Assembly (NCBI GenBank): GCA_030765785.1
Contig: JAVCCC010000054.1
Coordinates: 1 to 39,663, forward strand
DNA: 39,663 nt
Direction: 5' to 3'
Source: Candidatus Aceula lacicola
GTDB lineage: Bacteria > Omnitrophota > Gorgyraeia > Zapsychrales > Aceulaceae
Shown: positions 34,857 to 39,289 of the stretch, piece after piece
How positions within the stretch are numbered: the first letter of the stretch is position 1
Layout: the number at the start of each line of letters is the position of its first letter
Translations under genes and position numbers: made by a program
The notes under the pieces: model-generated
What the model was told of the DNA's origin: nothing
Seen by the model: only the letters and a program-made list of their open reading frames with translations
Database searches by the model: none

Positions 34857-35452
34857 AAATTGTTTTTTTTGACAGAGATGGGGTTATTAATGAGTTTCCG
34901 GGTTTCGGGAATTATGTAACGAAAGTAAAGAACTTTCATTTTATTAAAGGATCAATTGATACGATTGTTGATTTAACAAACAGAGGATATCATATTTTTG
35001 TTGTGTCGAATCAGGCGGGAGTTGCTAAGGGGATTTATTCAGCAAAAAAACTTAAGCAGATTAATGATTATATGATGCGACATGTTAAAAAAGCAGGAGG
35101 ACGGATCAAAAAAGTTTTTTATTGTATGCACCGCTCTGATGCTGGATGTGATTGTCGAAAACCAAATACGGGTTCGATCGAGCGTGCGCTTAAAATTATT
35201 AATAAAAAGTCAAAAGATGCAAAATATGCCTATTTTGTTGGTGATGATAAAACAGATATTGAAGCAGGCCATAACGCAGGATGTAAAACCATTTTAGTGT
35301 TATCTGGAAAGAATCGTCGAAAAGATGCAAAAAATTGGGTTGTTCAGCCTGATTTTATTGCAAAGACTCTTTCAGATGCAAGAAAGATTATTATTGATGA
35401 AAATTCTCGTTATTCATGCCTCGGCAGGGGCAGGGCATCAAAAAGCTGCTGA
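34853..35452 (+). CDS. gmhB: D-glycero-D-manno-heptose 1,7-bisphosphate phosphatase, C-terminally extended
   Basis: HAD-superfamily phosphatase removing the C7 phosphate from heptose 1,7-bisphosphate. The start is ATG 34853, overlapping the upstream stop as ATGA with AAAGGA before it. Nucleophile and acid are D7 and D9 (FFDRDGVIN), motif II SNQAGVAKG (52-60), motif III/IV VGDDKTDIEAG (129-139). The zinc loop has C91, H93, C99 and C101 (CMHRSDAGCDC). The protein is 199 aa, but residues 183-199 (DENSRYS...) lie inside the next gene in another frame and look unrelated to the family. A TGATGA in a shifted frame at 35395-35400 would end it at the normal length of about 181. Confidence 0.9.
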   Translation: MKIVFFDRDGVINEFPGFGNYVTKVKNFHFIKGSIDTIVDLTNRGYHIFVVSNQAGVAKGIYSAKKLKQINDYMMRHVKKAGGRIKKVFYCMHRSDAGCDCRKPNTGSIERALKIINKKSKDAKYAYFVGDDKTDIEAGHNAGCKTILVLSGKNRRKDAKNWVVQPDFIAKTLSDARKIIIDENSRYSCLGRGRASKSC

Positions 35453-36482
35453 AGCTATTTATAATAGCATTAAAAAACATACCGATTTTGATGCGCAATG
35501 CGTTGATGCCTTAGATTATACAAATCCTTTCTACAAGAAACTTTACCGAAAAACATATGCTCTTTTAATTAGTAAATGTCCGCAAGCGTGGGGATTTTTC
35601 TTTTGGTTTGCGGATATTCGTTTCTTATTAAGAAGCGTGCAGTGGACGCGACGCTTATTTAATACAATTAATGCGCAAAAATTGCATAAATTTTTAAAGA
35701 AAGAGAATTTTGATTATATTATTTCGACACATTTTTTTCCAAACGAAGTTGCTGGATTCTTAAAATGTAGAGAAGAGATTAAATCGAAAATAATTTGTGG
35801 TGTTACGGATTATGATGCACATAGCATTTGGATTTCTAAAGGCGTTGATCGTTATTGTGTTGCTTGCGAACATACAAAAAAGACGTTGACGTCTTTAGGC
35901 GTTTTAGACCAAAAAATTTCGATTACGGGCATTCCAACGGATGAGAAATTTTCACAAAGTCAAGATCGAGAAGCTCTTTGCGATAAGTTAGGGCTTAAAA
36001 AAAATATTTTTACCATTTTGATTGCGACAGGATCTTTTGGGATTGGACCGATCGAAGAGATCATCGCATCATTGTCTGGATTTCAACGAGTTGTTATTTG
36101 TGGACATAATAAGAATTTATTTAATCGGCTATCAAAGAATAAAGATGGTCTTACGAAGGTATGTGGTTTTATTGATAATATGCAGGAGTTTATGGCGGTT
36201 TCCGACGCTATGGTTACAAAGCCAGGCGGTCTTTCAATTTCAGAGGCATTGGTTTCAGGTCTTGTGCTTATCTTTTTTAGTGCTATTCCTGGACAAGAAA
36301 CAAATAATATTAAAGTTTTAAAAGAATATGGCATCGGGGTAAGTGGCGTGACGATTTTAGAGATGGCAGAAGAAATTAAAACTTTAAACGCATCCAAAGA
36401 ATATCGAGATTTAGCGGCAGAGAACATAAAGAAATTAGTTCGTCCGTCTGCAGCTCGTGATATCGTTAAGTTAATCGTATAA
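35397..36482 (+). CDS. MGDG synthase/processive diacylglycerol glycosyltransferase-like (GT28)
   Basis: A 361-aa GT-B glycosyltransferase with MurG-like fold. The start ATG 35397 gives the conserved N-terminus MKILVIHASAGAGHQKAAEA, whose GAGH loop binds the acceptor lipid head group; a possible ATG at 35325 lies deep inside gmhB. The N-terminal domain fits MGDG_synth (VDALDYTNPFYKKLYRKTY, IISTHFFPNE, VTDYDAHSIWI). The C-terminal GT28 domain has TGIPTDEKF, IATGSFGIGPIEEI, and KPGGLSISEAL for UDP-sugar binding. Glycolipid synthesis from UDP-glucose or UDP-galactose is the likely reaction. It overlaps gmhB by 56 bp, long for this operon where 4-8 bp is usual. Confidence 0.9.
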   Translation: MKILVIHASAGAGHQKAAEAIYNSIKKHTDFDAQCVDALDYTNPFYKKLYRKTYALLISKCPQAWGFFFWFADIRFLLRSVQWTRRLFNTINAQKLHKFLKKENFDYIISTHFFPNEVAGFLKCREEIKSKIICGVTDYDAHSIWISKGVDRYCVACEHTKKTLTSLGVLDQKISITGIPTDEKFSQSQDREALCDKLGLKKNIFTILIATGSFGIGPIEEIIASLSGFQRVVICGHNKNLFNRLSKNKDGLTKVCGFIDNMQEFMAVSDAMVTKPGGLSISEALVSGLVLIFFSAIPGQETNNIKVLKEYGIGVSGVTILEMAEEIKTLNASKEYRDLAAENIKKLVRPSAARDIVKLIV

Positions 36483-36499: not shown

Positions 36500-38347
36500 A
36501 TGAATAAACAAATTGCTCAGGTTGTTGTTGGCCTTCCTGTTGATAGGTCTTTTGACTATAAGATTGATTCGCCATTTTTAGGGAATGTGAGTGTTGGTCA
36601 GCGTGTTATTGTTCCATTTCAGGCTAAGAAGATGATGGGGTTTGTTGTTGGCTTGAAAGATACAAGTCCTTTTGCGAAATTAAAATCGATCATCAATGTT
36701 TTAGATGCCGAGCCAGTTATATCTTCAACGCTTCTTGAATTGGCAGAAGAATTCTCAAAATATTATTGCTGTTCTTTCGGAGAGGCTGTTGAAACATTTT
36801 TGCCGAGAAATTTAAAGAAAACCAAGAAGCCCGTTGAAATTTCTGTTTTAGAAAAAGAAATGGTGAATGCAGGGAAGTCTAGTTTTCTTTTGATTTGCGG
36901 GCAACCTCTTGATAAAAGTTGGCAAAAGATTTTGAATGAAGTTAAGAATACCGTCGATAAGAATCAAGGCGTTATTATTCTGGTACCTGAGAATTCAAGA
37001 ATTAAATCTGTTGTCAGTCAAATAAAAGCACACGTAAAGAATGAAGTTGTTGTGCTAGATAAGAAGCTTAAAGGAACCGATGAGCTTAAAAGCTGGATAA
37101 GGCTTAAGAAGGCAGAGGCTTCGATTGTTGTTGGTACGCGTTCGTGTATTTTTGCTCCGATTTATAATTTAGGATTAATTGTTATTTTGGAAGAAGATAA
37201 TTTTTCTTACAAGCAAGATCAGTCGCCGTTTTATCATGCTCGCGATGTCGCGCTTATGCGTTCGAAGATTGAAAAGTGTTCTTTAATCGCTTTTGCTGAG
37301 GTTCCGTCGGTGGAAATGTTTTTCTTGGCAGAATCGAAAAAAGAAGATCTTTTGAATTTGTATCCTAAAACGAATTTATCTGTTCAAGTTGTTGATATTT
37401 CAAACTATAGGCCTAAAAAGAATTCTTTGGTATCTATTCCTCTCTATTACGCCATTGAAAAGACGTTGAACGAAAGAGGCAAGATATTGCTTTTAATGAA
37501 CAAAAAAGGGTTTAGTAGCTATGGGGTTTGCGCAAAGTGTCAGCATGTTTTAAAATGTCCTCGCTGTGATGTTCATTTAACATATCTTTTTCATTCAAAG
37601 CAAGTTGTTTGTAGGCATTGTCATTATAGTGCGAATCGTCCAGAGATTTGCCCGAGTTGCAATAGTGGATATGTTAATTTTTCAGGTCAGGGCATTGAAA
37701 AGCTTGAGAGTGAAGTTGCTCGTATTTTTCCAATGGCACGTGTTAGTTGCTATGACAGCGATACAAAGAAATTTAATAGAAATTCTAATGTCTTGGTAGC
37801 GACACAGGCAGTCTTGAATCTAGAGGCAAAGCCTTCATTTGATTTAACGGCTGTTGTGCAAATTGATAGCGAGCTTAATCGTTTAGACTATAGAGCTGCG
37901 CATAAAACTTTTTCTTTATTGCTTCATCTTAAGAATTTGACAAAGAAACAAATGATTATTCAGACGAGGTTATCGGATAATTATTGTATTCAAAGACTTG
38001 CTAAAGATGATTTCTTAGGATTTTATGAAGATGAATTGGAGCTAAGAAAAGAAATAGAATGTCCTCCGTTTGTTCATATGGCAGAGGTCCTTGTTCGGTC
38101 GCTTAAGCAGGAAGATGCGTTGGCGCAGGCAGATTGTTTGTATCAAAGTTTTTTGGATCAGAATATTAAAGATATTGAGATTTTAGAGCCGCAGCCTCAT
38201 ATGATTGCTCGGTTGCGTGACCAATATCGATTTGCTATATTGATAAAAGGAAAAAATGTTGAAAAGATTGTAAAGGTTATCCGACAAAGTTTTAAAGATA
38301 TAAAAAGAAAATCGAGTACGATTATAACGGTTAATATTGACCCTTAA
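36500..38347 (+). CDS. priA: PriA-like primosomal protein N' lacking helicase motifs
   Basis: PriA restarts stalled replication forks and reloads DnaB. This 615-aa protein has the 3'-end-binding domain (VVVGLPVDRSFDYKI, VGQRVIVPF, residues 8-40) and all eight zinc cysteines (C344, C347, C353, C356, C371, C374, C384, C387), plus the C-terminal domain with PPFVHMAEV. But the ATPase motifs are lost: GVTGSGKT is GQPLDKS (134-140), DEEH is LEED (230-233), and QVAGRAGR is LHLKNLTK (475-482). GTRSCIFAP and FSYKQ, YHARDVA are kept. The helicase is thus probably inactive, and DNA/primosome binding may remain. E. coli PriA has 732 residues. UniProt-annotated actinobacterial PriA proteins are known to lack helicase motifs too. 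It starts 17 bp after the glycosyltransferase. Confidence 0.93.
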   Translation: MNKQIAQVVVGLPVDRSFDYKIDSPFLGNVSVGQRVIVPFQAKKMMGFVVGLKDTSPFAKLKSIINVLDAEPVISSTLLELAEEFSKYYCCSFGEAVETFLPRNLKKTKKPVEISVLEKEMVNAGKSSFLLICGQPLDKSWQKILNEVKNTVDKNQGVIILVPENSRIKSVVSQIKAHVKNEVVVLDKKLKGTDELKSWIRLKKAEASIVVGTRSCIFAPIYNLGLIVILEEDNFSYKQDQSPFYHARDVALMRSKIEKCSLIAFAEVPSVEMFFLAESKKEDLLNLYPKTNLSVQVVDISNYRPKKNSLVSIPLYYAIEKTLNERGKILLLMNKKGFSSYGVCAKCQHVLKCPRCDVHLTYLFHSKQVVCRHCHYSANRPEICPSCNSGYVNFSGQGIEKLESEVARIFPMARVSCYDSDTKKFNRNSNVLVATQAVLNLEAKPSFDLTAVVQIDSELNRLDYRAAHKTFSLLLHLKNLTKKQMIIQTRLSDNYCIQRLAKDDFLGFYEDELELRKEIECPPFVHMAEVLVRSLKQEDALAQADCLYQSFLDQNIKDIEILEPQPHMIARLRDQYRFAILIKGKNVEKIVKVIRQSFKDIKRKSSTIITVNIDP

Positions 38348-38362
38348 AAGGTGTTTAAGAAA

Positions 38363-39289
38363 ATGAAAATAGTTTTTTTTGGAAGTGATGATTTTGCATC
38401 TAAGAATTTAGAAAGCCTTGTTTCTTCTGGGCATGAGGTTTTAGCTTGCGTAACTCAGCCGGATAGACCAAAGGGAAGAGATTTAAAGATTGCTTTACCT
38501 CTGCCAAAGATTGTATCTGGAAAGTATGGCATCGATGTTTTGCAGCCTAAAGATTTGAAGGATGCAGGATTTTTAGAAAATCTTAAAAGTTATGATGCGG
38601 ATCTTTTTGTCGTTATCGCATATGGACGTATTTTGACAAAGGAAATTCTCGATATTCCAAAGATGTTTTCAATCAATGTACACGGGTCGCTACTTCCAAA
38701 ATATAGAGGAGCAGCACCGATTAATTGGGTGATTATAAATGGTGATGAAAAGACCGGTATTACGATTGCTAAAATTGATCAAAAGCTTGATTCGGGAGAT
38801 ATTCTAAAGCAAAAAGAACTGGAAATTAAAAAAGATGATACGTCAGCAACTTTACGTGCGCGCATGATTGATGAAAGTATTGATTTTCTTTTAAATTGTT
38901 TGAGTGATATTAAGAATAATAATATTTCTTTTCAGAAACAAGATAGTTCTAAGGTGAGCATTGCTCCCAAGCTTACAAAAGATTTAGGATGTATTGATTG
39001 GAATAAATCTGCATTTAAAATTCATAATCTTATTCGCGGGCTAAGGCCCTGGCCAAGCGCTTATACAAAATATAATGGAAAACTTTTAAAGATTTTAGAA
39101 GCTGAAGTTTTAGATCAGGATTCCACTGCTCCTGGCGAGATCTTGGATGTCTCAAAGCAAGGTTTTGTTGTAGGAACACAAGACAAAGTCCTTCTTGTTA
39201 AGCGAGTCCATCTTGAATCTTCTAAGCCAATGGATGCGGCTAGTTTTGTCGCAGGTCATAAGATCGAATCTGGCACCATTCTTGGGTAG
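38363..39289 (+). CDS. fmt: Methionyl-tRNA formyltransferase
   Basis: Formylates initiator Met-tRNA using 10-formyltetrahydrofolate. I prefer ATG 38363 (308 aa, MKIVFFGSDDFA) with AAGG about 12 nt upstream over the in-frame GTG at 38351. The hydrolase-like domain contains TQPDRPKGRD (31-40), the catalytic N105 and H107 in INVHGSLLPKYRGAAPINW, and D143 in DSGDIL. The C-terminal OB-like domain has WNKSAFKIHNLIRGLRPWPSAYT and a final HKIESGTI. Length is normal. It follows priA by 15 bp, the frequent priA-def-fmt order in bacteria, but def is absent between them. Confidence 0.96.
   Translation: MKIVFFGSDDFASKNLESLVSSGHEVLACVTQPDRPKGRDLKIALPLPKIVSGKYGIDVLQPKDLKDAGFLENLKSYDADLFVVIAYGRILTKEILDIPKMFSINVHGSLLPKYRGAAPINWVIINGDEKTGITIAKIDQKLDSGDILKQKELEIKKDDTSATLRARMIDESIDFLLNCLSDIKNNNISFQKQDSSKVSIAPKLTKDLGCIDWNKSAFKIHNLIRGLRPWPSAYTKYNGKLLKILEAEVLDQDSTAPGEILDVSKQGFVVGTQDKVLLVKRVHLESSKPMDAASFVAGHKIESGTILG

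Follow-up and report, generated by a model that had tools for sequence, protein, structure and literature searches.

A PriA orthologue with eroded helicase motifs in Candidatus Aceula lacicola and related Omnitrophota

Introduction

Nearly all bacteria keep the motor of PriA, although E. coli survives without it, and in E. coli the zinc domain of this protein has an important part in the docking of PriB and the loading of DnaB. A stretch of 39,663 nucleotides from Candidatus Aceula lacicola (hereafter the window) carries a priA gene in which the zinc cysteines are intact and the motifs expected of a helicase motor are changed. This raises the question of whether the gene still encodes a genuine PriA and, if so, what such a protein may do at a stalled fork.

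The PriA pseudohelicase as a kind is already known. The PriA of Deinococcus radiodurans was shown experimentally in 2015 to have no ATPase or unwinding activity, yet it binds forks and DnaB, and poor PriA helicase motifs are general in the Deinococcus-Thermus phylum (PMC4504706). The E. coli variant K230A supports DnaB loading in vitro (PMC10175261), and for Caulobacter a joint action of DciA and PriA has been proposed but not demonstrated (PMC9825169). Our literature search found no paper on PriA of the Omnitrophota, biochemical data included. New here are how deeply the motor has eroded, how widely the motor-less state extends through one order and numerous other families of a single phylum, and the additional disappearance of the zinc domain from several sublineages.

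Results

Gene and domain structure

The priA gene (36500..38347, + strand) starts with ATG and runs for 615 codons without internal stops, as an earlier note on this DNA had claimed. Its product matches the NCBIfam priA model TIGR00595 with 336–337 bits (cut-off 230), the match beginning at model position 15, i.e., past the P-loop. The 3′-DNA-binding domain (residues 1–105; 36500..36814; PF17764, 1.9e-27) is the best preserved part, and the PriA C-terminal domain (residues 523–615; 38066..38344; PF18074, 5.3e-15) is also above its Pfam cut-off. Inspection of the residues located the cysteine-rich zinc domain (residues 344–387; 37529..37660) inside helicase lobe 2, with all eight cysteines present (344, 347, 353, 356, 371, 374, 384, and 387). 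The retention of these cysteines and of both terminal domains thus agrees with the earlier note. The Pfam models Zn_ribbon_PriA (21.7 bits) and DEAD (21.2 bits) each remained under their 26-bit cut-offs.

An AlphaFold model of the protein (pLDDT 86.9, pTM 0.84) was compared with known structures using Foldseek. The top match was E. coli PriA on fork DNA (8fak; TM 0.81, E 1e-50), and the top nine matches were all PriA chains, with other proteins ranking below them. The protein is therefore predicted to keep the PriA fold, and it appears to share with E. coli PriA (PDB 8fak and 6dcr) the layout of 3′BD, HD1, HD2, CRR, and CTD. The whole-protein model, the terminal domains, the zinc region, the predicted fold, and the orthologous gene position all place it in the PriA family.

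Upstream of priA lies a gene for an MGDG-synthase-like glycosyltransferase (35325..36482, +; PF06925, 1.3e-26), whose ORF overlaps the preceding HAD-phosphatase ORF, suggesting a later start for the glycosyltransferase gene. The immediate downstream neighbour is fmt, encoding methionyl-tRNA formyltransferase (38351..39289, +; Formyl_trans_N, 1.1e-40). The order glycosyltransferase–priA–fmt extends through almost all of the order to which the window belongs, and in genomes with a canonical PriA fmt is usually downstream of priA too, often several hundred bases farther. This shared slot beside fmt indicates that the gene in the window is the ancestral priA in place, not an added paralogue. As a separate observation, priA and fmt nearly touch in the pseudohelicase clade (in the window, fmt starts at 38351), whereas most canonical genomes have several hundred bases between them; the loss of this gap suggests that a gene, perhaps def, left the slot.

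Loss of the helicase motifs

Alignment to E. coli PriA placed the replaced motifs exactly where the earlier note had put them. The P-loop GVTGSGKT reads GQPLDKSW (Walker A position GQPLDKS, residues 134–140; 36899..36919), with S140 standing at E. coli K230. Motif II, DEEH, has become LEED (residues 230–233; 37187..37198), of which E232 alone is widely retained across the order. Motif III is gone; the motif V region has changed from GTQMLAKG to ATQAVLNL (ATQAVLNLE, residues 434–442; 37799..37825); and motif VI has changed from QVAGRAGR to HLKNLTKK (LHLKNLTK, residues 475–482; 37922..37945), with the loss of the arginine finger. Alignment to E. coli and canonical relatives further showed a shortened linker (residues 106–131; 36815..36892), from which the segment preceding Walker A, carrying a Q-motif-like LTxEQ helix in canonical Omnitrophota PriAs, has been deleted, and about 12 residues ahead of motif V are also absent. 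The protein lacks both the ATP site and the winged-helix domain of E. coli PriA, the latter being already missing in canonical Omnitrophota PriAs.

When the whole protein was scanned, no P-loop or DExH pattern was found at any position, so a hidden P-loop elsewhere was rejected. The signatures of an active SF2 DNA helicase (Walker A GxxGxGK[TS], motif II DExH, and motif VI QxxGRxGR) are all lacking, and the combination of degenerate helicase motifs with conserved DNA-binding domains is that of the Deinococcus-type pseudohelicase. The description of this protein as having no recognisable helicase motifs is right for the catalytic ones but slightly too strong overall, because the TRSAxFxP block, the second Glu of motif II, YKQ, and the TQ core of motif V persist. 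Judged from its sequence, the protein has probably lost ATP binding and hydrolysis, although such losses would be compatible with atypical nucleotide binding.

Distribution across the Omnitrophota

To place the protein among its relatives, 132 PriAs of the phylum were read. The P-loop occurred in 45/45 canonical PriAs, in 0/49 from the window's order, and in 0/33 from 16 other families of the class; motif VI GRxGR was likewise present in all 45 canonical proteins and in none of the 82 pseudohelicases from the order and the other families. The motor-less state is thus common to the whole order and many further families, and not the single-lineage peculiarity implied by the earlier note. Within the order, the Walker A Lys was retained in none of the 46 full-length PriAs, and the Asp of motif II was missing in most. 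Among the 16 other families, f30 (G076) was intermediate, with GSGK kept and DEEH changed to YEEG. The motor was also lost in a family of another class (f51, five copies) and in the very divergent family f11 (three copies). Canonical Omnitrophota PriAs (e.g., L039 and L080) occupy the orthologous locus and have the same domains as the window protein, but retain GxTxSGK[TS], DEEH/DEEQ, GTQM, and GRxGR, and mostly score 540–690 bits against TIGR00595.

Two further observations concern individual families. The f11 PriAs (L221, L222, and L224) are so divergent that a TIGR00595 search at 1e-20 missed them; they keep the eight-cysteine region and have no helicase motifs. A mirror case occurs in f48 (L140:1670-3685, − strand), where all helicase motifs are kept but four of the eight zinc cysteines are missing.

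Some motor-less PriAs have lost the zinc domain as well. Within the order, 11 of 49 PriAs (those of nine f7 genomes, G052 of f7, and G031 of f4) are without it, and so are all five f51 copies. These proteins (L083–L085, L087, L092–L096, L099, L100, and L134–L138) belong to the separate sublineages f7, f4, and f51. One of them, L083, still matches the 3′BD and PriA_C models, and its predicted structure, although weaker (pLDDT 75), still has PriA structures as its top matches. The zinc domain, kept in the window protein, is therefore not strictly required.

Number of motor losses

In a tree of rpoB, 29 genomes without any canonical PriA formed a supported clade, including the sampled members of the window's order together with f9, f11, f17, f18, f32, f37, f43, and f45–f47. 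One old loss of the motor is thus well supported. The families f16/f26/f30, f19, f28, and f38 were placed elsewhere, some beside canonical families, and parsimony on this tree gave eight changes of the pseudohelicase label, at least five of them forced by well-supported branches. A single pseudohelicase clade was not rejected by the AU test (p 0.163). A tree of PriA itself, with the motif columns left in the alignment, grouped nearly all pseudohelicases, and this grouping was probably helped by long branches and those columns. Several motor losses are likely.

RpoB itself offers a marker for the main pseudohelicase clade: the proteins of this clade (G000:C39:21160-24690 in the window genome; L184–L212) are without about 80 residues, around TIGR02013 positions 220–297, which are present elsewhere in the class.

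Conservation and selection

For a test of selectivity, we took 122 residues that are ≥95% conserved in canonical PriAs and counted their retention in the window's order. The 3′ domain retained 91% of them, the YKQ block 83%, the zinc region 66% (with the zinc-less sublineages counted), and the C-terminal domain 65%, versus 7% for Walker A, 8% for motif III, and 3% for motif VI. The loss therefore hit the ATP site rather than the DNA-binding surface. Members of the order outside the zinc-less sublineages retain the zinc cysteines, and F18, D19, and Y20 are invariant in 29 aligned PriAs of the order.

The dN/dS of the window PriA against that of its nearest relative, G001, was about 0.09 (Nei–Gojobori; dS was 1.45, making this value approximate), and 0.05 for the zinc domain. 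The gene is therefore not evolving neutrally, and a pseudogene or assembly error was rejected given the open frame, this ratio, and a state common to 49 PriAs of the order.

A subtler form of decay is that PriA-based restart is being abandoned in these lineages, leaving a protein of little use, with the motor, then the zinc domain, and then the gene lost in stages. The distribution offers such a series, from canonical to motor-less to motor-less and zinc-less proteins and finally to seven genomes of 92–97% completeness (G028, G068, G103, G134, G137, G198, and G203) in which the PriA search gave nothing but weak hits to helicases; these genomes may have lost PriA entirely or have gaps in their assemblies, and for some the latter is probable. 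Pairwise dN/dS is also somewhat higher among pseudohelicases (0.09–0.25) than among canonical PriAs (0.06–0.08). However, pseudohelicase PriAs, although somewhat relaxed, are clearly constrained: the ratio stays in that low range, the gene is a single uninterrupted frame in the loci examined, and 40 columns are invariant across the 29 PriAs of the order, unlike the outcome of neutral decay. We consider a decaying remnant unlikely.

Genome context

The genome containing the window (1.5 Mb in 56 contigs; 96% complete, with 2.96% estimated contamination) has one PriA match above the cut-off. The earlier note had proposed looking for a second PriA or PriC in the genome, and neither was recognised. 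No second canonical priA emerged from the TIGR00595 search, the remaining matches being weak, local, and to other helicases; they lie on frames of 628, 703, 702, and 476 amino acids, the first three of which also match the RecG model. A second priA could have been missed in this fragmented assembly, but hardly in those of all its relatives. The genome has two full-length RecG matches (C46:1596-3491, the 703-amino-acid frame, and C12:2368-4263, the 702-amino-acid frame), possibly reflecting either contamination of the bin or a real duplication.

The window genome carries DnaB, a DciA-type loader, and RecG. DnaB was present in all 29 genomes searched and a DciA-like match in 27 of them (23 above the cut-off); PriC was above the cut-off in none of the 29. 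Matches to the DnaC/IstB model were mostly on frames of 440–500 amino acids, which look like DnaA. RecG was found in 74/74 genomes. A takeover by a new restart factor was also rejected: RecG and UvrD-type helicases occur alike in canonical and pseudohelicase genomes and PriC is absent, so among the genes searched (PriC, RecG, and UvrD-type helicases) no compensating gene was found.

These data also bear on whether the protein has been recruited to a job unrelated to restart, e.g., 3′-end binding in repair. Its departure from the canonical sequence is large, with about 25% of residues identical to E. coli PriA when the folds are aligned, but what it preserves are the fork-recognising parts, the gene is still in its ancestral slot, and DnaB and DciA persist with no other restart factor recognised in the search for PriC; such a change of role seems quite improbable. 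The idea that the protein is a helicase after all, by way of an unconventional nucleotide site or a motor supplied in trans by a separate ATPase subunit, could appeal to lobes still predicted to fold and to the kept TRSAxFxP, YKQ, and second Glu of motif II, but it is very improbable given that the P-loop and arginine finger are lost, the Asp of motif II is mostly gone in the order, and nothing is conserved there in place of any of the three.

Discussion

The window PriA is probably an orthologous pseudohelicase that retains fork recognition and serves as a platform for DnaB loading without unwinding. The role of structural loader or fork-binding factor proposed in the earlier note is thus the best reading of a sole PriA under purifying selection with a predicted PriA fold and a lost ATPase signature, and it concerns a function read from sequence: the protein would have no ATPase activity, would bind DNA, and would recruit DnaB or DciA.

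According to the mechanism we propose, the 3′-binding domain would bind the 3′ end of the nascent leading strand, and the remaining scaffold of the helicase lobes, the zinc domain, and the C-terminal domain would grip the fork. PriA bound in this way may act as a passive platform for the reloading of DnaB, probably with the DciA-type loader of the genome. Where the lagging strand needed clearance, RecG or a UvrD-type helicase might perform it; alternatively, restart might be limited to forks with single-stranded lagging arms.

Two known systems offer a guide. ATPase-dead variants of E. coli PriA (K230A and K230R) still assemble primosomes. As sister lineages do without the zinc domain, the way in which DnaB is loaded in E. 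coli is not simply transferable to the Omnitrophota. The PriA of D. radiodurans, with degenerate Walker A and B motifs, binds single-stranded DNA, forks, and DnaB in an organism without a clear PriB or DnaT homologue, and the window protein, by its sequence, appears to share its loss of the motor. In D. radiodurans, however, the P-loop Lys has become Arg in a motif that can still be aligned, whereas the window protein has lost the P-loop, motif III, and motif VI altogether, along with the segment ahead of the P-loop, and several relatives are zinc-less.

Annotated actinobacterial PriA (PRK14873) is also said to be without helicase motifs; our literature search found no paper documenting that loss. 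The window PriA scored up to 427 bits against models of the general subfamily (PRK05580.1–3) versus 194 bits for the best PRK14873 model, and, on these model scores, it is apparently a member of the general PriA lineage whose motor was lost separately from that of the Actinobacteria. The earlier note's proposal of an independent case outside that phylum therefore holds as regards the distinct subfamily, but the case is not the first, since D. radiodurans precedes it (PMC4504706).

A broader reading, which we offer tentatively and rate at somewhat less than an even chance, is that a large part of the Omnitrophota restarts replication on a motor-less PriA, that the ATPase was lost repeatedly and convergently, that the zinc domain was also lost in at least three sublineages, and that restart there is a purely binding-driven loading of DnaB through DciA.

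The presence of motor-bearing, motor-less, and motor-plus-zinc-less PriAs at one locus in related families constitutes a natural experiment on which activities of PriA are indispensable. Judging from the conserved residues, recognition of the 3′ end and of the fork would be what persists once everything catalytic is gone. These compact, minimal PriAs are offered for the study of DnaB reloading in bacteria with a DciA-type loader.
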